From IMG/VR virus record IMGVR_UViG_3300009184_002810, positions 1 to 53,613 of that record: DNA of 53,613 nt; one strand, 5' to 3'. The notes under the pieces were generated by a model that was not told the origin of the DNA, did no database searches, and saw only the letters and a program-made list of their open reading frames with translations. A program made the position numbers and the translations under genes. This DNA is from a virus. Below, piece after piece: positions 1,273 to 44,087 of this stretch (its first letter is position 1; each line of letters begins with the position of its first letter).

Positions 1273-1922
1273 ATTTTTGCAAACTTTGTATAATCTCCTC
1301 CGATAAATTCTATAATACCCCTGAAACTCTTTTGTTTAGCTTCTGTTACTCTTTTATTAGTGTTATAAACTCCTCCTTGAATTTGATACTGAGATTTTCT
1401 CGTATCATTCAAAGGACCAGTTAACTGCCATAACATACTTGTTGACTCATAACCTAAAACCGTGTCACTTATATTTCCATTTTGAATTTTAGTCCAGTCG
1501 AGTTGAGATATTTCAAATACAAACCCAGGACCGCTTACATTCTTAGCAAAATACCTTGTAAAGTATCCTCGTGCATAATCTGAATCTAGAGGGACGGGAT
1601 AATACGGGTTTAGTGAGGTTAATTCAAGGTTAGAATCTACTCCAGGATTTGCAGCAGCATACCCTCTTGCTGAGGTTAACTGTAAAGTACTAGACCTACT
1701 ATTTCCTGTAAAATCAGAATTATACTCATCTGTTACGTTAGCTTTTCTTATCGGAGTCAGTAATATGTTATTTCCTAATACCGGGTTAATACCTGTATAC
1801 GCCTTATCTTCGTAAGTCACATAATACCTGCCGGTATAAGCTTTTCGATCAGGAGTTAAGTACTCATTACCTCTCGTGTATAGGTTTGTTTTTATTCGAG
1901 TTAAAGGAAAATACTTTATCAT
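1263..1922 (-). CDS. Putative virion/baseplate protein, 219 aa
   Basis: I do not recognise a named family. The protein has no signal peptide or membrane segment and is rich in Tyr, Thr, Asn and Gly, as expected of a beta-rich structural protein. Its ATG overlaps the stop of the large hub gene in an ATGA junction, which implies translational coupling and equal supply. It is the last gene of the tail module before a hairpin terminator and the DNA polymerase gene. The late baseplate position suggests a wedge, hub or tail-tip component, but this is inferred from context only. Confidence 0.6.
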   Translation of the reverse strand: MIKYFPLTRIKTNLYTRGNEYLTPDRKAYTGRYYVTYEDKAYTGINPVLGNNILLTPIRKANVTDEYNSDFTGNSRSSTLQLTSARGYAAANPGVDSNLELTSLNPYYPVPLDSDYARGYFTRYFAKNVSGPGFVFEISQLDWTKIQNGNISDTVLGYESTSMLWQLTGPLNDTRKSQYQIQGGVYNTNKRVTEAKQKSFRGIIEFIGGDYTKFAKITP

Positions 1923-4900
1923 AATAATTTACCCGTGTTGTCTATGTAAGTTAAAAGCTTTCCAGTCTTCAATCCTATGTGTAAATGCGGATAACCCTGT
2001 AAGCGGGATGAATAATTACTAGGCCATTGACCTACATACGCTACTAAGTCCCCTTTTTTAACATTAGTACCTGCGGGTACTACTACTGAATCTAAATGAG
2101 TGTAGAAGAAGGTATTATTACTGCTTCCTATTGTAAGACTATACCCCCATACTGTGTTATTATTTTCACTAAACTTGACATTACTTATAGTTCCGTCGGC
2201 AATTGCATAAACTGGTGTTCCTGCAGCAACTCCTAAATCCCAGGCGTTATTATTTTGCCATATTTCCGGCAAATCTCCCCAGTTTGGATGTGCTGGGGTA
2301 TCGTACGCTAACCCGCTTTTTGCAGCACCGAATAGGTAGGTAGAAGTCTTTAGAGAATTTGTAGCTTTAAATAGATCTGTACCTCTTGGGTTATCTGATC
2401 GACTAGATACATTAATTTCTTGACTTTGTATTTCTCCTACAAGAGTTGAAGCTGTAACTTGTTTAACCTCGTTCCTTAGCTTAATCATTTGACCTTTAAT
2501 CTTGGTCAGCCATTGATTATTCTGAATTGTATGAGTAAGTCCAGTCACGATAAAAGCTACCTTTGCAAGCCCGTCTCTGCCTCTCAGTGAAAGCGGTAAT
2601 CTGTTTTGTGGAATAGTAAATGCATTACCCATTATAATACCGCTAATACCATCTAATGTCATCTCTAATTCAGCAGGAATAAAAGGTGCAGCAGATGTAA
2701 TTACATCACCGGACTTAACTTTAGACATTCTTTCAATATAATAGTTCTTAGCAAGGGCAATTCTATCTGTATTTAACTTAAAATTAGAATATATGTTTAT
2801 AATATGGTCGTTAAATAACTCAGCCGCTCTTTGATCATTCGATTCTTCATTATTTTTTGAGTTAGAATTATTACCAGACTCTCCATTAGAAGCATCTTGA
2901 ATATAGGGTTTATACCTATCTTGAAAGTTTTCATTTAAGTAACTTAAAGAGGAATGATCTTTTGCATTCACAGATCCTGTATTTGCTTGTGCTGATATCG
3001 CTATCATACTTGCAAGTTTAGTAGACATTACTGATTTTAACTGAAACTGTCTTGCTAAACCTAGGTTACCTGCAACAGGTAATTCTTGTGGATCGCTAGA
3101 AATAGGTAATAACCCTGCAAGTTTTTTATTGTTTCCTTCTTTTAAGTTGGACTTGTATTTCTCTGCACCAAGTATAGAGGCTTCTGTTCCGTTTAAGCTA
3201 GGTACCCACTGGTCATCTTGAATTTGAATTGTGTTGGAGTCGTCTCTATAAGCAGATCTAAAGGCATTTGTGTTTCCTAGAGATTTATTAATATCAACTA
3301 AAATTTGCTGTAAAAAAGGTTCTAATTTAACAGCATGTTCTGGGTCTGCACCAGCAGAGTTTTTTACAAGTCCTAGTAAATAGTCTACGTTTAATAGAAT
3401 ATCCATTATTCTTCCCTGATACGTATCGGTTTGTGTTTTGTAGGTAAGTCCTGCTTTCTTTATCAGTGTTGATACACCGTTAAATTTACCTGCAGGGTCA
3501 AATATAGGAGTTGCTTTATCAGTCCCTCGCCAGTTCTTTACTACATTTTCAGGAAAAATACTCTCATACTGAGGCTTTGTAGCTTGAAGCGGCACTAAGC
3601 AGGTTAAAGGATCAACGGAAAGTTGTTGGGGTGAGGTTAAGCAGAAATTTGTTTCTGGGTTAAAGTCGATGTAGACGTAAGGTCGTTTTGGAGTTCCTGT
3701 AGCTGCATTATTATTTGTTGTTAATTTAGAATCAGGTGAATCGTAAATTAAGCACATATTATTTAAGAAAGCTAATAGATAGCCGAAAGGTATGTATATA
3801 GGAGAGTACAGTACGGTATCGCTTCCCTCTTCCCCGCCTTGTCCGTATGCAAATGCAAAAGCAGTACATAACTTAGTATAATCTACTTTAGGTATAATAT
3901 CATAAAGGGTCGGGTCAATCATTAAGTTACTATTAAACCCTCTTGATGCATATGCAACTAAGAAATCCTTTTCTTTAAGGTCAGCAAATCTTTTAGGTAT
4001 ATTACTATCATTTAAAACCCCGTTCATTATACCGTCTTGAAAAAATTTTTCTGTTAAAGCACTAATATTAACTGCAAGACCTTTTACATTTGATTTAGCT
4101 ATTGCAACTTGGGCTACTGCCTGTACAATAGTTAGCATTGCTTGTAGTGCTGATGCAAAACCTTCAACAGCTTCTTGTTGATCAGTACTAGCTTTATTTA
4201 CAGTGCCGTTTGTATCTCCAGTGTTAGCTGTGTCTTTAGGTTTAGGATTTGTATCAGCAGGCGGTATAGGGGTTAATACATCAGCTATAAAGCCCGGGTT
4301 ATTAGTAGTTACCTTAAAGGTAATAGGTACTTTTTTCTTACTCTTATCTCCGTTATATCCTGGGTTTAATGCTTCTGAAGCGGCTCTATTAGACTCTAAA
4401 CCGTTGTAGTTTGCTACTATGTAATAAGTAGTGGTGCCGCTTATTTTAAAGTCTGAACCTACTCCAGAGTAAGTCACATTATCTAAACGGCTTCCATCAA
4501 TCTGCCATTGATCTAAAGCTACTAGTATGTCTGCTCTAGTTGGTTGGAAACTAGTATCGGTCCAGGAAGCTTGTATAGTAGTATTAGAAAAAGGAAAAAG
4601 TCTATTAGTCTCGTCGATTCTTACTGGTGCTACTAAGAATGAGTAAACTGCTTCAACTTTCCCGCCAGGTACTACTCCTGTTAAGGGAAGATCTACAGTT
4701 TTAGTACCTATTCCGATTACATTCATTAAGTCAAATGCCGTTAAACTTCCAATACCGGCCTGTCCTTTTAACCATTCTCCAGTAGCTGTTACAGCTTTTG
4801 TAGTATCTGTATTTGCAGCAAAGTATTTAGTAGCTGTTGTAAATGACCAACCTTTAACAGCACCTGTATAGCTGTCCATTTTGTCTTCAAGACTTCTTAT

Positions 4901-6295
4901 TTTCCCTCTAATATCTTCACTATTACCTCCATTTCCTTCTAGTATCCCCCTTATAGCCTTACTGAGTAGCTCTGTATCAAATTTAATTGAAGTTATAGTG
5001 GAGGGAGTATACCTTTTAAAGCCATAAGGCGCTTTATTGAGCCATAAACCTCCATAAGCTACTGAAACTGCGTTCTTAACATCTGGGTTAGTATTCTTGG
5101 TAAACGGTATATTAAAGGCGTAAAAATCTATATTTATATCATCTCCTTTAGGAATATAGACACCAATATTACTCGGGTACAGAAACTGGTATTTTTTAAC
5201 AAGAGGTGCTATTCCGTAAGTCTTAACAAAAGCAGCAAAATCTCCTTGAAGCCCATCGTATTTTTGTGCGCGCGCAAATAATTCTGGTACGGTTACAGGA
5301 ACTGGGTCGATTTGAGTTGTTGATGTAGTTTCGCCTTTAGGAGGATTGTCTTGTAGCTCCTTTAATAATCGTTTTGTTTCTGCTAACTGTGCCTGTATTT
5401 GTGCGTATTCACTTTTACTCTTCTTATACTCCTTTAATAGGCCGTCTGGTAGTTTGTAGGCTTGGTTAATTCTCATAGAATCCATTACAGATCCTAATCC
5501 TACTAGCTTGACGCTGCAGTCGTACCCTCCATCTTGATTCATAGACCAGTTAAAGTTGGAAACTATACCTAACATTCCATCGTAGTTACCAAAAGTGTTT
5601 CTTGCTTGAAATGCAATAGCTTGTTGTATGTTTTCTTTTCTCTGATTACCTTTAAATGGATCATCGATTCCAAATGCAATACGGTTAAAGCCTCCGTTGT
5701 TTTCATAATACTGAGTATGTCCCCATTCAAGTAACATAGAGTATCCTAGTCTAAAATAAAGAGCTTCAATTACATTAAGTTGGTTCATGTTCCAAACCTT
5801 AAACTGTATATTTGCTTGTCTTAAAGATCCTAAACGTCCTGTAGTCTCTATCGTGACTCCTGTTAGTCCAGGTAGTGGCCTATAGCCCATCTCTTCTGTA
5901 CCTCCTAAGCCGTATGCACCATCGGGTCCAATACCTGATCTTAAGTTAATTCCATTTCCTTTTTGTATAGAAGTTCCTGCTTCAAGAATCCAATTTTTCG
6001 CTAGAGAATCCGGTGCATTATAAGATAGTGTAGAATCTAAGTTAAAACGACTATAGTAAGTCTTATAGTCTTTGTCTGTTAATTTAAGTAAATTAGAAGT
6101 CGGCTGTAATTCAATATTCACAGAGGATACAAGACGTGCCGAACCCGTTTTATTAGCTAAAAATAAAATATCGTCATTTGACCTGCTAACTGTACTATTC
6201 TGTGCAGCTCTAATATAAAGCTGTAAAAGGACATAGTCGCTAAATGGTGCACCTATAACATTGGATAACTTTACATTAGTATCGCTAGTAGCCAT
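1919..6295 (-). CDS. Large baseplate hub-like protein with C-terminal M23 peptidase-like domain, 1458 aa
   Basis: The last 110 residues resemble an M23 (LytM-type) endopeptidase: the WDLGVAAGTPVYAIADG block with D1353, a YTHLD block (H1400) and HLH at 1437-1439. The first zinc ligand of the HxxxD motif should be residue 1349 but is Asn. Residues 150-260 contain a compact block typical of phage baseplate structural proteins; a Glu/Lys/Gln-rich helix near 290-315 may be coiled coil; residues 580-665 look like a beta-sandwich; an Ala-rich hydrophobic helix lies near 715-745. The likely role is a hub or tail-tip protein that opens peptidoglycan during injection, as the gp5 lysozyme does in T4. 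It overlaps the upstream LysM-like gene by 11 nt and the downstream gene by 4 nt. Peptidase activity is uncertain because of the Asn. Confidence 0.75.
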   Translation of the reverse strand: MATSDTNVKLSNVIGAPFSDYVLLQLYIRAAQNSTVSRSNDDILFLANKTGSARLVSSVNIELQPTSNLLKLTDKDYKTYYSRFNLDSTLSYNAPDSLAKNWILEAGTSIQKGNGINLRSGIGPDGAYGLGGTEEMGYRPLPGLTGVTIETTGRLGSLRQANIQFKVWNMNQLNVIEALYFRLGYSMLLEWGHTQYYENNGGFNRIAFGIDDPFKGNQRKENIQQAIAFQARNTFGNYDGMLGIVSNFNWSMNQDGGYDCSVKLVGLGSVMDSMRINQAYKLPDGLLKEYKKSKSEYAQIQAQLAETKRLLKELQDNPPKGETTSTTQIDPVPVTVPELFARAQKYDGLQGDFAAFVKTYGIAPLVKKYQFLYPSNIGVYIPKGDDINIDFYAFNIPFTKNTNPDVKNAVSVAYGGLWLNKAPYGFKRYTPSTITSIKFDTELLSKAIRGILEGNGGNSEDIRGKIRSLEDKMDSYTGAVKGWSFTTATKYFAANTDTTKAVTATGEWLKGQAGIGSLTAFDLMNVIGIGTKTVDLPLTGVVPGGKVEAVYSFLVAPVRIDETNRLFPFSNTTIQASWTDTSFQPTRADILVALDQWQIDGSRLDNVTYSGVGSDFKISGTTTYYIVANYNGLESNRAASEALNPGYNGDKSKKKVPITFKVTTNNPGFIADVLTPIPPADTNPKPKDTANTGDTNGTVNKASTDQQEAVEGFASALQAMLTIVQAVAQVAIAKSNVKGLAVNISALTEKFFQDGIMNGVLNDSNIPKRFADLKEKDFLVAYASRGFNSNLMIDPTLYDIIPKVDYTKLCTAFAFAYGQGGEEGSDTVLYSPIYIPFGYLLAFLNNMCLIYDSPDSKLTTNNNAATGTPKRPYVYIDFNPETNFCLTSPQQLSVDPLTCLVPLQATKPQYESIFPENVVKNWRGTDKATPIFDPAGKFNGVSTLIKKAGLTYKTQTDTYQGRIMDILLNVDYLLGLVKNSAGADPEHAVKLEPFLQQILVDINKSLGNTNAFRSAYRDDSNTIQIQDDQWVPSLNGTEASILGAEKYKSNLKEGNNKKLAGLLPISSDPQELPVAGNLGLARQFQLKSVMSTKLASMIAISAQANTGSVNAKDHSSLSYLNENFQDRYKPYIQDASNGESGNNSNSKNNEESNDQRAAELFNDHIINIYSNFKLNTDRIALAKNYYIERMSKVKSGDVITSAAPFIPAELEMTLDGISGIIMGNAFTIPQNRLPLSLRGRDGLAKVAFIVTGLTHTIQNNQWLTKIKGQMIKLRNEVKQVTASTLVGEIQSQEINVSSRSDNPRGTDLFKATNSLKTSTYLFGAAKSGLAYDTPAHPNWGDLPEIWQNNNAWDLGVAAGTPVYAIADGTISNVKFSENNNTVWGYSLTIGSSNNTFFYTHLDSVVVPAGTNVKKGDLVAYVGQWPSNYSSRLQGYPHLHIGLKTGKLLTYIDNTGKLL

Positions 6296-8755: not shown

Positions 8756-11098
8756 TTATTTTGTAGTTTGACCGTAAACAGTGGATGAATGCTTTGTAGC
8801 AGACCTAGCTATAACATCTCCGTCTACTGTAGTGTAGACAACAAGTTCGATAGGTGCATTACTGGTCCCGGCATTACTACTTGAACTGTCTCCTGAAGCT
8901 TTATATTGCTTAGATCCATTTTCAACATTATTACTAATAGATCCTGCTGGCGCGCCGCCTAGAGAATTGGTAGTTGCTCTAATACTACCTGCTAATCCGC
9001 CAGAACCAGATCTAACTGATTCAGCCATTCCCTGCCATTTATCTTTATCTGTAAAAGGTAAGTGGCTAATACCGTCAAGCATCGTAGCTATAATTTCGCC
9101 AATCATACTAATTGTACTTGCAAGTTTATCGGCCATTCCTTTGATAAAGTTGTTTACTTTTACTGGATCGGTAATAAATTCAAATAAGCCTGAGTTTCTT
9201 AAGAAGTCTACAAAAGTCTTCTTGATTCTTTCCATTACTTCAGAGAGCTTTTCTGCTGTACTTACTTGAGTATAGGTGTTATATGCATCTTTACCTATCA
9301 TAGCACTAATCTGCTCCTGTGTTTTACCTTGCTTCTCTAATAATTCTATTTTTTTATTAAAAGTTTCTACGTCTGTAGCACCTAGTTTAGAGTATAGCGT
9401 CTGCTTCTTTAAAACATCTGCAAGACTGTCTCTTGACATACCAACAGAGCTAGCAATTGCCTCTTGCTGAATCCTATTCATCTTTAAATAGGCATTTGCA
9501 TCACCTATATTCTTAGTTATCTCTGATGCAAGCTTTGCATTATCGTTATTTAAAGCAGCCTCTCTTGCAGCTGTAAGGTTCATATCCTTACCCGTTAAGA
9601 CCTGTGCTTCCATCTCTTTAGAAATACTTCCTTCAAAGTCTAAGAAACTTTCTGCTGTACTGTCTAGCTGTTTTAAGTCAAATCCAAGAGTCTTTACTGA
9701 TAAAATAGCTTTAGTGAGTTTTTCTGGATATTTAGCGAATGTTAAACCCATTACTCCGGCCATCTTGGAAGCCTCTCCTATAATATCATTAAACTTAAAG
9801 CTAGTTCCTACTAGTTTATTAAATGCACCTACAGTGCCTATTACACCTTGCGTTAATTTAGTTGCATTACGTCCTGTTACGATAGATGATTCTGCAATCT
9901 TCTGTCTTGATTCTGCCTCTAATCCTAAAATATCTCTTAACTTAACGTCGTTTACTAAAATATCGGCGCTTAATTGCTTATTGGTACCTAATTGCTTACT
10001 AATCTCTACTTGAGATTGTAGCATTCTAGTAGAGTTAACTACTATGTTATCACTTGCTGCAGCAATGCCGTCAAATTGCTTTCTCATACTGTCGGCTGCG
10101 CCGGCTGAAATATTTAAAGCTCTACCGACTCTAAAGTTTGCCTGTTCTACGCCTAGTACAGCATCAAGCATTGCTTTAAACCCATCTACTAATCCTCCTA
10201 AAAGGCCACCTATGAATGGAATCTTACTTAAAATACTACTAAGTCCTCCTAGTATACTAGTTGCACCTGATGCTTTAGCTTTACCGCCTCCCATACCTAA
10301 ATCATCACCGGTAAGTAAGCCTGCTGCATCTGCAAGCGGAGCTGACAGTCCTGCTTTAATTTGATTACCCAATTCTTTGAAAGGTGCTGCCATAGCTTTT
10401 ACAGCTTTTACTACTGCTGCTGCTGCCATACCGTATGGTCCTAATGCTCCCGAACCTCCTGCTTGTTCTACAGTATCTAATAACCCACCACCTCCTGCTC
10501 CTCCTTTTCCGCCAGGCGTGCCTATTTGATTACCGCCGCCTGCATTTGCTCTAGCGATACTTACACTGAGGTCTTTTCTTTCTTTTGATCTAAAGAGGTC
10601 CATTATCTTACCCCCAAGACCTCTCTCTTTATTAATATCTTTAATTAACTGTTTTTCAGTCTTAAGGCCCTGTGATTTAATGTCAATTTCTTGCTTGGCT
10701 TTTAGTAAAGCGACTGCTGTTGTCTTCTCTAACTCTGTTCTTTCTAATTGACGAGCTGCTATTATAGCTTGCTGTTGTTGAAGCTGATCTTCTATTTCTT
10801 GTTTTCGAAAACCGTTAGCTGTTTTTAAGTCTCCTTGAAGTTGTCCCTGTTGCCTGAGAGCATTATTTAACTCGTCAGCTCCTCTTTTATAATCCTCAAT
10901 ATCTTCTAGCTGAGATTCGGTGAGTTTATTAATAGCTTCTTGAACTGTCTGAGATTGCCTATCTGCTTCTCTAATCTGAAGTTTTAGACGCAGGATGTTA
11001 GCTAACCCAAGTTCTTCAGCTTGTAAAGCTTTTACTTTGGTAGGATCTGCTGCGTTTGCAAGTCTCTCTTCTGCGGATTTTGGTTTGTTATCAGCCAT
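8756..11098 (-). CDS. Tail tape measure protein, 780 aa
   Basis: Residues 1-180 are Gln/Glu/Lys-rich helix with coiled-coil character. A Gly-rich linker follows near 190-215, then Ala/Gly/Leu hydrophobic stretches around 215-320, long amphipathic helices to about 640, and a low-complexity Ser/Asn/Gly C-terminus. This is the usual make-up of a tape measure, which sets tail length and is threaded inside the tube. At the general ratio of about 0.15 nm per residue the tail would be near 115-120 nm. The gene follows a frameshifted chaperone gene, the standard order in tailed phages. A TATTTATT box lies 18 nt before the start. Residues 650-690 are membrane-like, consistent with a role in DNA passage. 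Confidence 0.82.
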   Translation of the reverse strand: MADNKPKSAEERLANAADPTKVKALQAEELGLANILRLKLQIREADRQSQTVQEAINKLTESQLEDIEDYKRGADELNNALRQQGQLQGDLKTANGFRKQEIEDQLQQQQAIIAARQLERTELEKTTAVALLKAKQEIDIKSQGLKTEKQLIKDINKERGLGGKIMDLFRSKERKDLSVSIARANAGGGNQIGTPGGKGGAGGGGLLDTVEQAGGSGALGPYGMAAAAVVKAVKAMAAPFKELGNQIKAGLSAPLADAAGLLTGDDLGMGGGKAKASGATSILGGLSSILSKIPFIGGLLGGLVDGFKAMLDAVLGVEQANFRVGRALNISAGAADSMRKQFDGIAAASDNIVVNSTRMLQSQVEISKQLGTNKQLSADILVNDVKLRDILGLEAESRQKIAESSIVTGRNATKLTQGVIGTVGAFNKLVGTSFKFNDIIGEASKMAGVMGLTFAKYPEKLTKAILSVKTLGFDLKQLDSTAESFLDFEGSISKEMEAQVLTGKDMNLTAAREAALNNDNAKLASEITKNIGDANAYLKMNRIQQEAIASSVGMSRDSLADVLKKQTLYSKLGATDVETFNKKIELLEKQGKTQEQISAMIGKDAYNTYTQVSTAEKLSEVMERIKKTFVDFLRNSGLFEFITDPVKVNNFIKGMADKLASTISMIGEIIATMLDGISHLPFTDKDKWQGMAESVRSGSGGLAGSIRATTNSLGGAPAGSISNNVENGSKQYKASGDSSSSNAGTSNAPIELVVYTTVDGDVIARSATKHSSTVYGQTTK

Positions 11099-11129: not shown

Positions 11130-11417
11130 TTACTTCCTTTTTACCTTAGATGTATAGGTAGGAGTATCGTTTGGCGCCTTTACGTTAGGCTTAGTGATTA
11201 GAGGTTTGTTAGCAGTTACCATTTGCTGGTCGTTTCGGATCTCTTGAAGCTTTTCTAGATGCTCATTAATGAACTGTATATTAAGTCTTCTCTCGCGAAT
11301 AGGCATCTCCATGACTTCAGACCACGAAAAGCCTCCGCCGCCATGGTAAGTAAGTTCAAAAACTTCTTTTTTATAGATTTGTCTGTACTCAGGTCCCGGG
11401 AAAAAAAAATTCCGCCG
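11130..11417 (-). CDS. Frameshift extension of the tape-measure chaperone (GT-like tail), about 88 codons after the shift
   Basis: This frame opens just after a TAA at 11418-11420 and has no start codon before the T run. It encodes PGPEYRQIYKKEV, an ELTYHGGGGFSWSEVMEMPI block, a helical region and a basic end (KVKRK). Entry would be by a +1 or -2 shift on TTTTTTTTTCCC from the overlapping upstream gene, giving a fusion of about 335 residues. That matches the G/GT arrangement of tail assembly chaperones, located directly before the tape measure. An independent start at the ATG at 11312 (60 aa) is possible but would cut off the conserved Gly-rich block. A one-base homopolymer error would also explain the break. 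Confidence 0.7.
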   Translation of the reverse strand, partial: RRNFFFPGPEYRQIYKKEVFELTYHGGGGFSWSEVMEMPIRERRLNIQFINEHLEKLQEIRNDQQMVTANKPLITKPNVKAPNDTPTYTSKVKRK

Positions 11418-12141
11418 TTAAAGGCAAACTTTGTGTAATTTCTTTACCGTTTAATAAGGTAAAATTGATTGTAAGATCGATATCTGGTGATATAGTTGTA
11501 ATATAGGATCGCAGTGGATTAGAGTCTTTGGCGATTAAAAAGTTATCTACAAAATCTCTAACATCTTTAGGTTCGTAATTACCGTTTACAGATAAAATTT
11601 GATGCTTTAAACGGGAAGTAACCTCACCTACTGCAATATTGGCTTTCTTTAAACCTTTTGCTTCGGCTTCAATAGCCTTCTCATCGCTTACAGTAAGTAA
11701 TTTGAAAGTTATAGTGTTTTTAGAATGAGGTAAGTTAAAAGTAAACTCGTTCTTATTATTATATAAAGAATAATCTACTTCTTTATTCTTCAAATCGTTT
11801 AAATCGATGTTAATAGTCTCTTTAGACTCTGATTCTGAATCATAATACTCAAAACTATAGGCAGAACCGTAAGCTAAAATACGAGCTGCAATTAATAGAG
11901 AGTTTCTATCTCCTAATAATAAATCCTCATATTTGATAGGAGACTTAATAATAGACTGTAACATTTTTTCAATTGCTACACCTTGTCTTAATAAGTTAAT
12001 GTTTGTAAGTATATCCTCTTCTCTTGCTGTCATATACTTCATTTCGATAGTACCAGACGATAAAGGATTAGTAATATCGTAGATTTTACCTTGAGAAGGT
12101 AATTCAATCATCTCTGTAGGAAGTGTAAACTTTTCTGCCAT
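11389..12141 (-). CDS. T4 gp26/gp51-type baseplate hub assembly chaperone, 250 aa (G-like short product)
   Basis: The N-terminal pattern LPSQGKIYDITNPLSSGTIE followed by MKYMTAREEDILTN, then a helical region with SLLIAARI, is characteristic of the T4 baseplate assembly family (gp26/gp51 type, PF12322-like). These proteins are not in the mature virion and are thought to chaperone the tape measure and hub. The frame ends in EFFFPGT-stop just after a T9 run, and the next frame continues the protein (see the extension entry). So this gene likely makes a short form by normal decoding and a long form by slippage. A TATTTATT box lies 21 nt before the ATG. The position directly upstream of the tape measure agrees with the assignment. 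Confidence 0.78.
   Translation of the reverse strand: MAEKFTLPTEMIELPSQGKIYDITNPLSSGTIEMKYMTAREEDILTNINLLRQGVAIEKMLQSIIKSPIKYEDLLLGDRNSLLIAARILAYGSAYSFEYYDSESESKETINIDLNDLKNKEVDYSLYNNKNEFTFNLPHSKNTITFKLLTVSDEKAIEAEAKGLKKANIAVGEVTSRLKHQILSVNGNYEPKDVRDFVDNFLIAKDSNPLRSYITTISPDIDLTINFTLLNGKEITQSLPLTAEFFFPGT
11398..11412 (-). other. Slippery sequence T9-CCC at the chaperone frameshift
   Basis: In the upstream frame the codons read GAA TTT TTT TTT CCC GGG ACC TGA. The last TTT can re-pair as TTC by a +1 move, or the ribosome can step back two bases on the T run; both give CCG GGA CCT next. Nine T is also long enough for RNA polymerase slippage. The downstream frame has a stop right before this run, so the switch must occur within about 30 nt here. 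Confidence 0.65.
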
Positions 12142-12193: not shown

Positions 12194-12493
12194 TTATTTT
12201 TTAAAAAACTTTATAACCATTCCGAAAATATCTCCTATAATAGTCATATACACGAGCATCATAACTGTATAAAATACAGCGGAATATGCAAAATACATAG
12301 AAAATCCTGTCCAGGTTCCATCTGTACATAATGCATGTATCATTTCAAAGGTAAGTGCGGTAACACCTGCACATACTATAATCCCTAGTATAATGAATAG
12401 GATACCCCCTATAAACATTAACGGTATCCAGAAGATTCTTATGAAAATCCCTAAGCAAACTAGGAGGAAGGTGTATAATAAGAACGTTACCAT
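12194..12493 (-). CDS. Small membrane protein, 99 aa, three hydrophobic segments
   Basis: Residues 1-20, 23-52 and 68-92 are strongly hydrophobic, so a protein with about three transmembrane helices is expected. The end is basic (KFFKK), consistent with a cytoplasmic C-terminus. No family is recognised. It stands alone, downstream of the terminator that closes the tail tube transcript and upstream of the chaperone gene, and has its own variant box (TATTTAG then GTATAAAAAT) about 18 nt before the ATG. A holin or another membrane role in lysis or superinfection control is possible from size and topology, but nothing specific supports it. Confidence 0.65.
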   Translation of the reverse strand: MVTFLLYTFLLVCLGIFIRIFWIPLMFIGGILFIILGIIVCAGVTALTFEMIHALCTDGTWTGFSMYFAYSAVFYTVMMLVYMTIIGDIFGMVIKFFKK

Positions 12494-12597: not shown

Positions 12598-13083
12598 TTA
12601 GTAGTTAAGGATACAATAATCCATTCCGATTTGTAATTCAATTGTGATAGCATCTTGGTTAGACCAATCGTAAGAACCGAAGTTTGATGTCTTAATGAAA
12701 GCTCCTTTAATAATCCACTCTGATACTACATCGCCTACTGGGCCTAAGATTGATAAGTTCAAATCTTTCTTGTAGAAGTCAGAATAACCATCACGGCCAG
12801 TTACTGATTCATGTGATAGACGAATCCACTCCATTACGGCTTGTTGACCTGAAGGAGAGATTGGGTTGTATAAGTTTAAAGTCATATCTTGCCACTCAGC
12901 CTTACCCTTAATCTTGCGGTAAACGTTGATATGGTCGATTTTAACTTCGTTCAAGTTGATGTTTGGTGCAGTTGCACTTTTAATCATAAATGAAGGTATA
13001 CCGTCAATATACATGATGAAACGGTTCTGAACGGTTGGTTCAAAGGCCGTAAACATTATTTCATTTGGATCTAATACTGGCAT
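12598..13083 (-). CDS. Tail tube protein, gp19-like, 161 aa
   Basis: Length and pattern match the T4 gp19 / phage tail tube family: the N-terminal FEPTVQNRFIMYIDGIPSFM strand pair, a central DHINVYRKIKGKAEW loop that precedes strands, and a C-terminal AITIELQIGMDYCILNY strand. Copies of this protein form the inner tube through which DNA and the tape measure pass. It is the last gene before a strong terminator, with a TATTTATA box 16 nt before the start, so it can be expressed at high level separately from the sheath. The context of sheath, two accessory genes, then tube is close to the gp18-gp19 order. Confidence 0.9.
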   Translation of the reverse strand: MPVLDPNEIMFTAFEPTVQNRFIMYIDGIPSFMIKSATAPNINLNEVKIDHINVYRKIKGKAEWQDMTLNLYNPISPSGQQAVMEWIRLSHESVTGRDGYSDFYKKDLNLSILGPVGDVVSEWIIKGAFIKTSNFGSYDWSNQDAITIELQIGMDYCILNY

Positions 13084-14265: not shown

Positions 14266-16365
14266 TTAACCGAATGTTACTCCAGTTGGTAATACGTTGA
14301 AATCTAATTGGATGTATTCAGCTGTTCTAGTTGGTTGTAAGTAAATAGCACCTACAAGTAAGTTTCTATCAATTACGTCCGGTGTGTTATTAGTCTCATC
14401 CATTACCACTCTGAATGCATATAAACCTTGTCTTTGTTGTACATACTCTAAGTAAGGGTTAACTTGAGATAAGAATTTATTTCTAGTTACAGCAGTATTT
14501 TGTTCGAATACTAATGTTTCTGCAATTTGACCAATATATCCTTTCAATGCAATTAATAATCTTCTAACATTTACTCTATCTAAAGCAGAAGCTCTAGCTT
14601 GTAAAGTCTTTTGACCATATACTACCGTACCTTGACCTGGGAATACTGCGATTGGGTTAACTTTAGCTGTATACAAAGTGTTTCTTTGTGCTACTGTTAA
14701 TCTTCTTTCAGGTTGGATTACTGTTGGTAAACCTCCTCTGTTAAGACCCGCAGGTGCAAACCACTCAGCAGATACCTTATCATTGTATTCGTATACTCCT
14801 GGAATAATAGTAGAAGCTGGTACGAAATGTAATCTACCTGTCTCTTGGGATCTTACTTGAACCCATGGCCAATAAGTAGCGCCGTAAGAATTGTCGTAAG
14901 ATTGAGCTCCAGTTGTTACTGTCGTAATATTTTGATTGTATCCAACCATATCTACTACTGCAACAGCATCACCGCGGTTTTGAACCGTGCTTAATAAAGC
15001 AGATACTTGGCTTGCAGCATTTTGATTAGTAATACCTGGTGCATAAATTGCATTATAAGCATAAGCATCTGAATTTGCAAGTAAGCTAATTGCTACATCG
15101 TAGTCATTATTAACTAAACCTTGAATATTATTAGCAGCAGCGGTTGCAGCTACTGTTGGAATTTGTTCGAATAAATTTAATGCAACAGAAGCACTTCCGT
15201 TTGATAATAAACCTCCGTATAAAGCACCAGTTGCGTTACTGAAAGATCCATTTACAGAACCGCTACCGTTTACAGGTATAGAAGCTGTGTATGCAGCATA
15301 TGCTTGTCCTTGTGGATTTAAATAGTTCGGTGTTGGCGTATTTACGTTAGATACTCTAATGTAATTAGATCTATTAGGGTAGCTGCCTGTTATATTTAAG
15401 TAAGCAGCGCCGCTTTCGTCGTAAGCTACGTTTTGAGCCTGATCTCCAATTACGTATGCAATATAGTTATTTTGATTTGGATCTAAAGATAAATTAGTCC
15501 AAGTCTCTAATACTGTTTGGCCTTGTGTATAATCGTTTCCTTGTCTAACAAGTAAGGTAAAGTACCCTGAAGCTGTATCAGCTTGAGTTACTTGCCATCT
15601 AACGTTGTTAGCAGAACCAGAAGGTAATAAACCATTAGTTGCTGTTGCTGATCCTTGGTTATTATTCATTACTGTACCTACTGATAGTGTTTCTAATTCA
15701 AAAGTATATGTAGGAGATATTCCGTTTGCAAAGGTTGCGGTAATAGAGCTAGTTGTATAGCTGAAGCTGTTACCTGCGGTTCCTTTTTCTTTTGCTGTAA
15801 AACTTACAGTGCTAGCAGAAGCATATGCAATAACACCAAGTGTACTAGTTAAAGTATTAACTTTAGTAGCAATGTTTGTTGCTGTTATTGCTGCTGTTGA
15901 ACCGGTTGTTACGTAGTATGTAGGAGCTGCATCTACCTGTGTAGTACTTGAAGTTACAAAAAATCGACTTACTGCAGATCCAGTTAATTGGAAGAAAGCG
16001 CTGTCTGTATAACTTGCTGATGTAAGCAAAGATGCTGTAAAACCAGTGTTATTAGGTACGTATGCGGTTGCTGCTGTATAAGAACCGCTCGCTACTCTTG
16101 CTACTAACAATGAAGTACCTCCTTGTTGGAAGTAGTTATATGCTGCTTGAGAAGTTAAGTATTCCTGTGTGTTACCTCCAGAAATGAAAGTAGTTCCGTA
16201 CTTAGCCTTATATTCAGAGTATGAAGTTACAAGAGTTGGTATATTTACTTTTCCTACTACTGTAGGGCCTATTAAAGCCGATCCTACTGTAATTGGACCT
16301 GCTGTTATTTGGGAAAGGTCGTTTTCTCTAAGGAAAACGCCAGGACTAATTAATGCTTCTGCCAT
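14266..16365 (-). CDS. Contractile tail sheath protein, 699 aa
   Basis: The start ALISPGVFLRENDLSQITAG and the VGSALIGPTVVGKVNIPTLV block are the standard N-terminal sheath pattern. The C-terminal 200 residues hold the conserved core that interlocks subunits: the NRGGLPTVIQPERRLTVAQR region, RVNVRRLLIALKGYI, and the strand TAEYIQLDFNVLPTGVTFG. The central part (about 120-400) is Ser/Thr/Gly-rich and variable, as in gp18 proteins whose outer domains differ. Length compares well with T4 gp18 (659 aa). It forms the contracting cylinder around the gp19-like tube. A TATTTATT box 20 nt before the ATG suggests strong late expression. Confidence 0.93.
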   Translation of the reverse strand: MAEALISPGVFLRENDLSQITAGPITVGSALIGPTVVGKVNIPTLVTSYSEYKAKYGTTFISGGNTQEYLTSQAAYNYFQQGGTSLLVARVASGSYTAATAYVPNNTGFTASLLTSASYTDSAFFQLTGSAVSRFFVTSSTTQVDAAPTYYVTTGSTAAITATNIATKVNTLTSTLGVIAYASASTVSFTAKEKGTAGNSFSYTTSSITATFANGISPTYTFELETLSVGTVMNNNQGSATATNGLLPSGSANNVRWQVTQADTASGYFTLLVRQGNDYTQGQTVLETWTNLSLDPNQNNYIAYVIGDQAQNVAYDESGAAYLNITGSYPNRSNYIRVSNVNTPTPNYLNPQGQAYAAYTASIPVNGSGSVNGSFSNATGALYGGLLSNGSASVALNLFEQIPTVAATAAANNIQGLVNNDYDVAISLLANSDAYAYNAIYAPGITNQNAASQVSALLSTVQNRGDAVAVVDMVGYNQNITTVTTGAQSYDNSYGATYWPWVQVRSQETGRLHFVPASTIIPGVYEYNDKVSAEWFAPAGLNRGGLPTVIQPERRLTVAQRNTLYTAKVNPIAVFPGQGTVVYGQKTLQARASALDRVNVRRLLIALKGYIGQIAETLVFEQNTAVTRNKFLSQVNPYLEYVQQRQGLYAFRVVMDETNNTPDVIDRNLLVGAIYLQPTRTAEYIQLDFNVLPTGVTFG

Positions 16366-19126: not shown

Positions 19127-20617
19127 TTAACAACATGCTCCGCATGTTCCCCAAGGTTGCCACCAAGCAGCACCTTGACAGCAATAACCTTTAGGGCAAT
19201 CAGTGCACTGTTGCCAACATGCTCCGCAGTTAAGACTGTAGTAGTAGCAGCTAATAACGTTGTGCTCTATAGCAACATAGGAACTAGAAGTATCTCCACT
19301 TTCTTTAGTCAAGAACAAGTGAGCTCTTTCTACTGTCATATCCCATCCTTTAAAGAATTTCATTTCAGTTTCAGTACTTTCAATAACTTTTTCAGTAAAA
19401 GAAACTACGTCTGGATTAGAGCTATCGATTAATAGAAACTTATCTCCTGCTACTAGTTGCTGTGATGGAAGGAATCTGATCTCACCGTCTCTTTCAACTA
19501 GGTAGTTTGATACAGCGTAGTCCACCCAATCCGTACTATCCGTAAATTTAAGAGTTACTAGCTGAGTTCTTGCGCTCATTCGTTTCTTAAAAGTTATAGC
19601 GTTAGTGCTATAAGTGGTTCCTGCTACTAGTTCATCGTAAGTTATTCTATAATTTGCTAAGTCGTTTGCGTTATCAACACTAAATGGGTTTGGAATATCT
19701 ATAGTCTTTAATAAATCTCCAACCTGTAATTCAGCTGCTGTTTTAAAAGTCCCGTCAGCCATCTCAACTAAATCTGTATCGTCTAATTTAGGTTTAAACA
19801 CTCTTTCAGTGCCAGTTACGTACTGTTCTCTAAATTCTGATTTTAATTCAGTATTCTCATATTCAGCATTACCGTAAACACTATTTTCGCATATCTTATG
19901 GTAAGCTCCTATAGAAATAGATTCTAAGTCTGGTGGAAATAGTATATTTAAGGATCTAACAACAGATATATGTTCTTCTTGAATATTTTTATCGTTATAA
20001 TAGTATGGCATTAAGAAGTACCCTGCTGTTAAACTAGCGGCTAGGCTGTTTAACTCCTCTTGAGTCGTTATTCTATATAACTTAGGGTACACCTCTTTAT
20101 CGTAACTAGGTAAAATAGCTTTTACTAAAAAATTAGGGTGAATACCATTATCGATTATAGTACTAATATTGTTAACTAATGCTCCTTCTGCATCCAAATA
20201 TGCAAATTCATGTCCAAATGTCGATGTTTTAATCAGGTTTAGGAAATTAACCTTATCTTTACAGTACGTATCGTCTATTAAAGCTGTTGTATCGTATGCA
20301 CTTCTTATGATTAATACATCCTCTGCATCTTCGATGTTAGGTATAGTAATTGCTCCGGCTTTTAATACGTGCATCTCACATGGAATAGTTACGGAACTTG
20401 TAAGTTGATTAAAAAAAGAACTAACATTTCCTATATATTCGATTTTACTAAAAGCTTTCTCATTAACAAAAGCAGATAAAGCTGTTAAATCTAATGTTTC
20501 GGCATCTGACTCCAATTTGTCGTACCCGTTCCAGCCGATACTGGTATTAATCTCTATTGGCTTTAAATTTCCTTCATTGTCATACATGAAGTCTGTACCT
20601 AATAATACTGTTCTCAT
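19127..20617 (-). CDS. Permuted ATP-grasp-like protein with Hint-like domain and Cys-rich tail, 496 aa
   Basis: Residues 6-34 read like the metal-binding end of an ATP-grasp enzyme (GTDFMYDNEGNLKPIEINTS, E22 and N24). Residues 100-225 look like the remaining lobes (VLIIRSAYDTTALIDDTYC, then HISVVRSLN). This order suggests a circularly permuted ATP-grasp fold. From about 275 a Hint/intein-like module starts (DDTDLVEMADGTF, AELQVGDLL) and ends in AIEHN at 449-453. The Cys expected at the splice start is absent and the residue after HN is Val, so splicing is unlikely. The last 40 residues hold 10 cysteines (457, 464, 467, 471, 474, 479, 480, 492, 495, 496). The role is unknown; peptide ligation or a disulfide-rich display tail are options. 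A TATTTATA box precedes it by 16 nt. Confidence 0.55.
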   Translation of the reverse strand: MRTVLLGTDFMYDNEGNLKPIEINTSIGWNGYDKLESDAETLDLTALSAFVNEKAFSKIEYIGNVSSFFNQLTSSVTIPCEMHVLKAGAITIPNIEDAEDVLIIRSAYDTTALIDDTYCKDKVNFLNLIKTSTFGHEFAYLDAEGALVNNISTIIDNGIHPNFLVKAILPSYDKEVYPKLYRITTQEELNSLAASLTAGYFLMPYYYNDKNIQEEHISVVRSLNILFPPDLESISIGAYHKICENSVYGNAEYENTELKSEFREQYVTGTERVFKPKLDDTDLVEMADGTFKTAAELQVGDLLKTIDIPNPFSVDNANDLANYRITYDELVAGTTYSTNAITFKKRMSARTQLVTLKFTDSTDWVDYAVSNYLVERDGEIRFLPSQQLVAGDKFLLIDSSNPDVVSFTEKVIESTETEMKFFKGWDMTVERAHLFLTKESGDTSSSYVAIEHNVISCYYYSLNCGACWQQCTDCPKGYCCQGAAWWQPWGTCGACC

Positions 20618-42792: not shown

Positions 42793-44087
42793 TATATTCC
42801 AACGTTTAAATGTATTATATTACCTTGATTAGCTTTACCGTGTATTTTATATTTTCCTAAAGTTGTTAGGCCGTCTATTTTTCTATCTCCGGAACCTGTT
42901 TGTATTTCATTATTATATCTTAATTGATTCCATCTACTATTATCATCTTGCCACCTACCATTATTAAACCCACAGTCTTTGTGTTCTAATTTTACCAGTT
43001 TACTATTTCGTCTAAATGGAATATATGAATAATAATTTATAAATGGTTTAAAGTAGTCAATATAGATATTAAAAAACTCTCCGTGATTTTCATTACTAGA
43101 AATATCAGTAAATTTATATTCATTAATATCATAGTTTTTGTAGTGTATTTTTATTTGATCATTTTGCTCTAATAAAAACTCATTTATACTGCCTTTAAAA
43201 AAATGTTTCTTTTCATCATCAGAACCTACTATTATACTTTCTTCTTTTGAATAATTGTATATACTATTTGATAGTTCGACACTACCTAAAATACCGTTTA
43301 CTGAAAAATTAACGATATTTTTTTCCTTGTTATATTCGATTAATATCTTATTATTTGATGCTGTTACAATATCCGAATGAAGATCATAATAATTACCTTT
43401 TTTATCAAATAACTGTAAATAAAATCTATTAAAAGAATTGTAAAATAATTTAAAATCGTAGCCTTTTATTGATAAAATAGGAAATATATCATATTGCAGA
43501 TTTTCATTATAAACAACTCTAGCCAAATTGATATCTAATTCTATTTTAAAACTTTTATTATAATTTACAATATTAGGAATTTTTGCGTAAGCATTGACTC
43601 CATTAAAAATAGGTAATTTTTGTTTAGTAAATGTATCACTTATAGTTTTTTTAAATGGTACATTTTTTTTTACACATCTATAACGTAAATCATCATCTTC
43701 AAATCCCCATCCCCAATATAAATTAGAAAACCCATTTATTTTTTCAAATATATCAGTAGGGAACATAGTCATTCCGCCAAAATAAGATTCAAATGGAATA
43801 TTATCAGTTGCTAAATGCACGGGTACATTTGAATACGAATAATCCACATCAACTGGTATCATGTCAATATCGTGGATTACTATATAATCACAATTTTCTT
43901 TTTGTGCTTCTATAAACCCAATGTTGCATAACATTCCTCTATTAAAAAGTTTAGCATTGTCTTGTTCGACGATGATAATTTTAAAATCCATATTTTTAGA
44001 TTCTAAATATTTTACTATACTTTTTTTAAACTCTTGCAAATGCTCATACCTGTTTCTGTATGGAACTATTACACCAAGTTTATGCAT
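42792..44087 (-). CDS. GT7-type galactosyltransferase interrupted by a LamG-like domain, copy 2, 431 aa
   Basis: It repeats the layout of copy 1: GVIVPYRNRYEHLQEF, KLFNRGMLCNIGFIE, VIHDIDMIPVDVD and YWGWGFEDDDLRYR, then a LamG-like block starting FNGVNAYAKIPNI and holding HFFKGSINEFLLE, then the GT7 end NQLRYNNEIQTGSGDRKIDG. The WGWGxEDDD motif is closer to classical GT7 than in copy 1. The DNA is clearly more AT-rich than the neighbours and the protein richer in Lys, Asn and Ile, suggesting separate acquisition. It overlaps the downstream gene by one base and the upstream small gene by 8 nt. Confidence 0.72.
   Translation of the reverse strand: MHKLGVIVPYRNRYEHLQEFKKSIVKYLESKNMDFKIIIVEQDNAKLFNRGMLCNIGFIEAQKENCDYIVIHDIDMIPVDVDYSYSNVPVHLATDNIPFESYFGGMTMFPTDIFEKINGFSNLYWGWGFEDDDLRYRCVKKNVPFKKTISDTFTKQKLPIFNGVNAYAKIPNIVNYNKSFKIELDINLARVVYNENLQYDIFPILSIKGYDFKLFYNSFNRFYLQLFDKKGNYYDLHSDIVTASNNKILIEYNKEKNIVNFSVNGILGSVELSNSIYNYSKEESIIVGSDDEKKHFFKGSINEFLLEQNDQIKIHYKNYDINEYKFTDISSNENHGEFFNIYIDYFKPFINYYSYIPFRRNSKLVKLEHKDCGFNNGRWQDDNSRWNQLRYNNEIQTGSGDRKIDGLTTLGKYKIHGKANQGNIIHLNVGI

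Follow-up and report, generated by a model that had tools for sequence, protein, structure and literature searches.

Predicted +1 frameshifting on TTT codons for short and long tail assembly chaperones in T4-type phages

The phage genome studied here, a stretch of 53,613 nucleotides that we call the window (IMG/VR record IMGVR_UViG_3300009184_002810), carries a gene that probably encodes both forms of the tail assembly chaperone of a T4-type contractile-tailed phage, a short form that ends by normal termination and a long form that would arise by +1 programmed ribosomal frameshifting. This reading is drawn from sequence comparison. The layout of the locus is conserved among relatives, the extension is under purifying selection in the +1 frame, the slip codons are constrained at the nucleotide level, and the gene is homologous to T4 gp26 and, via cyanophage extensions, to the tail of T4 gp51. 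The host is probably a member of the Bacteroidota, judging from an isolate relative.

Layout of the chaperone locus

The short ORF (250 aa; 11389..12141, minus strand), predicted to be the short form of a T4 gp26-type tail assembly chaperone (TAC-N), closes with a TGA stop (11389..11391, minus strand) located 12 nt past the end of a run of nine T (11401..11409, minus strand). The run, hereafter T9, reads TTT TTT TTT in the 0 frame and is directly followed by CCC (11398..11400, minus strand), the proposed slow A-site codon. Both the distance and the coordinates had been given correctly in the preliminary description for the minus-strand sequence, which from 11415 to 11389 reads GCG GAA TTT TTT TTT CCC GGG ACC TGA. 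In the +1 frame the same region reads (TAA) CGG CGG AAT TTT TTT TTC CCG GGA CCT GAG TAC AGA, that is FFFPGPEYRQIYKKEVFELTYHGGGGFSWSEVMEMPI..., and this frame is open from the TAA (11418..11420, minus strand) over the T9 run down to 11130 and encodes FFFPGPEYRQIYKKEVFELTYHGGGGFSWSEVMEMPIRERRLNIQFINEHLEK....

The +1-frame extension (TAC-C; 11130..11399, minus strand) comprises 89 aa and a stop codon at 11130-11132 (minus strand); it is supported by an alignment with 36 relatives, by dN/dS and by a helical model, and its conceptual fusion to the short ORF is 336 aa long. In the alignment the conserved region starts right at the T9 run. As had been described, the extension frame has no start before the run and a TAA just upstream of it: no ATG, GTG or TTG is present in the +1 frame between this TAA, which sets the 5' limit for a shift, and the conserved motif, and the first start codon, at 11312, lies within the motif. 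Because the +1-frame TAA is upstream and the first +1-frame start is already inside the motif, the shift junction is confined to 11391-11418.

The locus sits between the tail tube and tape measure genes, as a tail assembly chaperone of the G/GT type requires. On its upstream side lie genes for a tail sheath protein (14266..16365, minus strand; phrog_23, E 2e-65) and a gp19-type tail tube protein (12598..13083, minus strand; phrog_4542, E 2.8e-23), with a small hydrophobic ORF (12194..12493, minus strand) between the tube and chaperone genes. The gene for the 780-aa tape measure protein (8756..11098, minus strand), recognized by its similarity to the annotated tape measure of Flavobacterium phage immuto (371 aa aligned at 30% identity, E 1e-30), starts 31 nt downstream of the extension. 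The lambda-like order proposed earlier (short form, shifted extension, tape measure) holds, and the tube gene precedes it.

Conservation and selection of the +1 layout

A scan of IMG/VR with the window protein and its counterparts from immuto, a huge phage and SP-15, together with S-PM2 gp26, yielded 267 classified loci. In 176 of them (99 distinct junctions) the +1 frame holds the extension and is open across the 0-frame stop, although neither number counts independent events, since the loci are related by ancestry. By nearest query, 27 of these loci belong to the window, 133 to immuto and 15 to the huge phage, in addition to SP-15. In each of the 176 loci (99 distinct junctions), the stretch that separates the last +1-frame stop from the 0-frame stop contains an in-frame TTT with T or C as the next base, against a background of 5.2% of the 12-codon windows elsewhere in the same ORFs; elsewhere, TTT makes up 69% of the Phe codons in the window group, 77% in the immuto group and 92% in the huge-phage group. 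The junctions take forms such as TTT TTT TTT CCC (the window clade), TTC TTT TTT CCC, TTT TTT TGG, TTT CTA TGG, TTC TTT TGG and TTT CTT CTC, with TTT CTT TGG in the isolate immuto and TTT TTT CAC in the isolate SP-15. The isolates immuto, SP-15 and Mel-JY01 share the frame relation without a long run, and a Winogradskyella metagenome-assembled genome also has the +1 layout. Among near relatives, 17 of 22 distinct junctions are without a start codon ahead of the motif. Homologs with the two parts in one continuous frame and no run, which the preliminary description had named as the refuting case, were not found among the relatives examined; the exceptions are separate ORFs with their own ATG. 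The existing annotations of immuto, SP-15 and Mel-JY01 show a small hypothetical ORF, treated as unrelated, that is in the frame of the extension and covers it or its C-terminal part.

The slip site is also constrained at the nucleotide level, as expected of a programmed +1 frameshift, both across the family (the 176 of 176 loci above) and within the T9 clade. In the 15 sequences of this clade, the last 200 codons of the short ORF include 39 with an invariant amino acid (other than Met or Trp), and only three of these 39 are codon-invariant, exactly the three TTT of the run. The extension shows a dN/dS of 0.05 in the +1 frame vs 1.6-1.7 when read in the other two frames (T9 clade), and its residues G25, G26 and R40 are invariant over 33 extensions. 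Within the window, Pro is encoded least often by CCC, the codon that follows the run (30 of 484 Pro codons, 2.2 per 1000).

Alternatives to a +1 ribosomal shift

The alternative that survives best, though we regard it as unlikely, is transcriptional slippage, in which RNA polymerase would yield mRNAs with eight (or eleven) U's that ribosomes then read in one frame. The protein product would be identical, runs of eight or more T are scarce in the rest of the window (5 octamers found vs 16 expected), and the run, with its three invariant TTT codons, is exactly nine throughout the T9 clade, as a check of related genomes showed. The same check revealed that the +1 layout is kept in relatives with shorter runs: the longest T run among the 99 distinct junctions is 3-4 in 35, 6 in 3, 7 in 48 and 9 in 13, so a long run is not needed, and a long homopolymer is conserved only within the T9 clade and not across the family. 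Since 38 of the 99 have no run longer than six (e.g., TTTCTTTGG, TTCTTTTGG, TTTCTTCTCCC and AATTTTTTCAC), neither polymerase slippage nor a −2 shift can be the general mechanism; as family-wide explanations both are ruled out by the relatives with short or no T runs. Moreover, the T9 run is not an essential element, as T7 or just TTTC/TTTT is what most relatives carry, and transcriptional slippage is therefore at most an addition, restricted to the T9 clade; the earlier suggestion of RNA polymerase slippage as another route keeps that much and falls as a general mechanism. As for the three frozen TTT of this clade, where elsewhere a single TTT[C] is enough, either each of them may slip or RNA polymerase slippage may add yield. 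The run length itself may be selected, because a single-site slip needs no TTT at the first codon of the run, and a selected length would also suit polymerase slippage.

Far less probable is that the extension is a separate gene, expressed through re-initiation or internal initiation with no fusion. Such an arrangement does occur in relatives: the extension has its own start codon in L087, and in L020, L028, L278 and L283 it is a separate ORF with an ATG just past the short-form stop. Three of the latter (L028, L278 and L283) have lost the TTT[T/C] and show the forms TTC TTC TTC, TTC TTG TAT and TTC CTT TGG, and L020 has separate ORFs yet keeps its TTT codons. In the window, by contrast, an internal start was rejected, as the +1 frame has none before the motif, its first start codon falls inside it, and the conserved region begins at the T9 run itself.

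The last two alternatives can be dismissed briefly. A sequencing or assembly error hiding a true run of eight T, and hence a single long ORF, is scarcely credible: homopolymers are error-prone and one base fewer would rejoin the frames, but the same frame relation recurs in many metagenomes (176 loci) as well as the isolates without a long run (immuto, SP-15 and Mel-JY01), which refutes it for the family. Equally hard to credit is a −2 ribosomal frameshift as in phage Mu, which would reach the same frame and for which T9 permits re-pairing after a two-base backward slip; relatives with ACA TTT CTT TGG or GGC TTC TTT TGG allow no such re-pairing, whereas the +1 move from TTT to TTC or TTT works in all. 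The shift had been described as +1 or −2, and because relatives with TTTCTTTGG or TTCTTTTGG cannot re-pair after −2, only the +1 part is borne out.

Relationship to T4 gp26 and gp51

The short ORF matches PF12322 (T4_baseplate) with 41.6 bits, above the curated cut-off of 24.5 (E 1.5e-10), and phrog_150 'baseplate hub' (E 6e-14), which confirms its earlier assignment to the T4 gp26/gp51 type. In T4, gp26 and gp51 are two diverged genes on opposite strands; both are members of PF12322 and they are paralogs (BLASTP 2e-6; profile comparison probability 99.5). They have been listed as hub assembly chaperones, and gp51 as essential, of unknown function and missing from the final particle (PMC3004832).

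The extension can be linked to gp51 in two steps. The window-type extensions match the cyanophage extensions (hhalign probability 92.5, E 5e-7), and these in turn are similar to T4-type gp51 in its C-terminal tail (hhalign probability 97.6, E 4e-12), while T4 gp26 aligns with the cyanophage fusion only as far as about the slip site. Compared directly by hhalign, the window-type extension and T4 gp51 give a weak match (P 3e-4 to 4e-3), though at the right place, and in a direct HMM search with the extension gp51 sequences were the top two of 1414, again with weak scores. In addition, the relative L051 matches phrog_634 'baseplate hub assembly catalyst' (E 1.3e-5). The chain from window-type to cyanophage extensions to the gp51 tail therefore suggests that the short form has its counterpart in gp26 and the long form in gp51. 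Both systems would thus have a PF12322 short form, an N-terminal domain common to the two forms and an extension equivalent to the gp51 C-terminal tail, but T4 uses two separate genes where the window would use one gene and a +1 shift for both forms.

The short form and the extension were folded as separate chains. The short-form model (pLDDT 91) matches many predicted T4-like hub assembly proteins, and its best two matches among solved structures (VIA-align) are YqbN (Z 5.2, 96 aligned residues) and HK97 gp13 (Z 4.8, 99 of 104 aligned), a chaperone-like phage-element protein and a tail assembly chaperone, respectively; both Z values are modest and below the level where Z alone convinces, and the next match has a Z of 2.4. 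The extension model (pLDDT 73.5) consists of three helices and a disordered tail, and one of its Foldseek matches, a Citrobacter phage Moogle protein annotated as a tape measure chaperone (probability 0.98, E 0.53), is a lead only.

We also observed a weak but recurrent similarity of the extensions to DUF6760 (PF20546): with a limit of E 1, 11 of 37 members matched, the best at 0.0022. This family may represent the domain of the extension as a stand-alone gene elsewhere. The window's extension is no more than a tentative candidate for it, its own match lying below the cut-off; a search for DUF6760 in G001 and the control genomes gave nothing above the cut-off, and NCBIfam gave no useful match.

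Proposed mechanism

The ribosomal event, its efficiency and the chaperone role of the products are inferred. Most ribosomes would stop at the TGA and release the short, gp26-type form of 250 aa, and a minority would undergo the +1 programmed frameshift and make the long form. In the latter, the peptidyl-tRNA-Phe on UUU would slip one base forward onto UUU or UUC during a pause at the A site, where the presumably slow codon is CCC in the window and UGG or CUU in relatives; the codons found after the slip site in other clades are TGG, CTT, TAC and CAC. A slip of tRNA-Phe from TTT to TTC had been suggested for the +1 case, and by our comparison of junctions no event other than the +1 re-pairing from TTT to TTT or TTC could take place in all relatives. 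By analogy with lambda G/GT, copies of the short form would cover the tape measure protein, and the scarcer long form would serve to recruit the tube or the baseplate initiator.

With regard to stimulators, a search downstream of the T9-clade sites revealed no RNA structure, pseudoknot or hairpin (mean z −0.08), and the anti-Shine-Dalgarno signal near the T9-clade site is weak, about 19% of background windows being equally good. Bacteroidota ribosomes depend little on Shine-Dalgarno pairing. A 6-bp hairpin (GCCGAT...ATCGGC), absent from the T9 clade, lies just 3' of the slip site in L021 (2219-2260) and L022-L025 with a mean fold z of −3.3, and could act as a stimulator there.

A close mechanistic parallel is prfB (RF2), at which a P-site tRNA also slips +1 on a U-rich codon ahead of a slow A site; its CTT|T is present in part of the window's family, and at the prfB site UUU and CCC are reported to rank directly behind CUU in +1 slipperiness (Curran 1993, as cited in PMC10274946). 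It differs in that the A-site codon of the window is a sense codon and no clear Shine-Dalgarno stimulator was found, and autoregulation is not implied. With lambda G/GT and HK97 gp13/gp14 the window shares, at the sequence level, the position before the tape measure gene and a short plus a frameshifted long form, but no sequence similarity to them was detected for the window gene, and the lambda shift is −1 (PMC5009743) where that of the window family would be +1. Tail-chaperone shifts other than −1 do exist, very likely +1 in HSTV-2 and −2 in Mu (PMC5009743); these belong to other phage families, and the part of that review available to us describes a TTT slip for neither.

Recoding in cyanophages and other relatives

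In cyanophages of the S-PM2 type the arrangement is alike in that one gene is followed by a shifted, homologous extension, but the shift would be −1 on T_TTT_TTC instead of +1 on TTT[T/C]. The extension is in the −1 frame at 80 loci (51 distinct junctions); T_TTT_TTC stands one codon ahead of the gp26 stop in 51 of 51 distinct junctions, and 19 of the 51 are without an ATG within 36 nt past the stop. The genes now called gp26 and 'gp51' at these loci (L106:972-1864 and L107-L186) appear as a −1 frameshift pair, and the annotated cyanophage 'gp51' is probably the extension and not a gene of its own. The cyanophage gp51 had puzzled because it is without the first ~200 N-terminal residues yet C-terminally similar, as noted in 2010 (PMC3037559). 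A further recoding mode was seen in the jumbo Xanthomonas phage XacN1 (L086:2953-4300), where a PF12322 gene is followed by a −1-frame extension with a slippery CTTTTTTTAT.

It is conceivable, though we would put it forward only as a tentative and rather doubtful picture, that the chaperone gene switched its recoding mode repeatedly (+1 ribosomal in Bacteroidota phages, −1 ribosomal in cyanophages and the jumbo phage XacN1, split ORFs, and gene duplication in T4), with both kinds of slippage acting on one run in the T9 clade. Ribosomal and transcriptional slippage on the same T9 run would explain why all three TTT are frozen.

Implications

This family has, at the sequence level, a short and a frameshifted long form in T4-type phages, and the direction of the shift, +1 on TTT, is unusual. 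Vladimirov and colleagues are said to have described, in a 2022 abstract, frameshifting as conserved in several T4-like groups. The short/long principle is not new, since the T4 pair has already been published as tail assembly chaperones, and T4-like phages with the short and long chaperone as separate genes have been reported (Vladimirov, Gautam, Davidson, Virology 2022, as cited in PMC10274946); a +1 shift on TTT in this large clade has, as far as we have checked, not been described. T4 was listed as an exception to the tail-chaperone frameshift rule in a 2016 review (PMC5009743), and the layout reported here links T4, with its two separate genes, to the rule followed by other long-tailed phages. 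The +1 layout occurs in well over 100 environmental phage contigs and an isolate, where current annotation reduces the extension to fragments or hypothetical ORFs. Together they offer a large natural data set for the rules of +1 slippage, probably in Bacteroidota, and the cultured isolate would allow them to be measured.

Finally, three minor observations concern other parts of the window. The only other 9-base A/T run, at 43663-43671, is an A9 on the coding strand of a 431-aa minus-strand ORF whose frame is open. A large tail protein (1919-6295, minus strand) carries an M23 peptidase domain at its C-terminus (PF01551, E 5e-13) and is probably a cell-wall-cutting hub protein. At 19127-20617 (minus strand) lies a gene for a protein with an intein/Hint-like stretch (VEMADGTFKTAAELQVGDLL) and a Cys-rich C-terminal tail (CGACWQQCTDCPKGYCCQG...CGACC).
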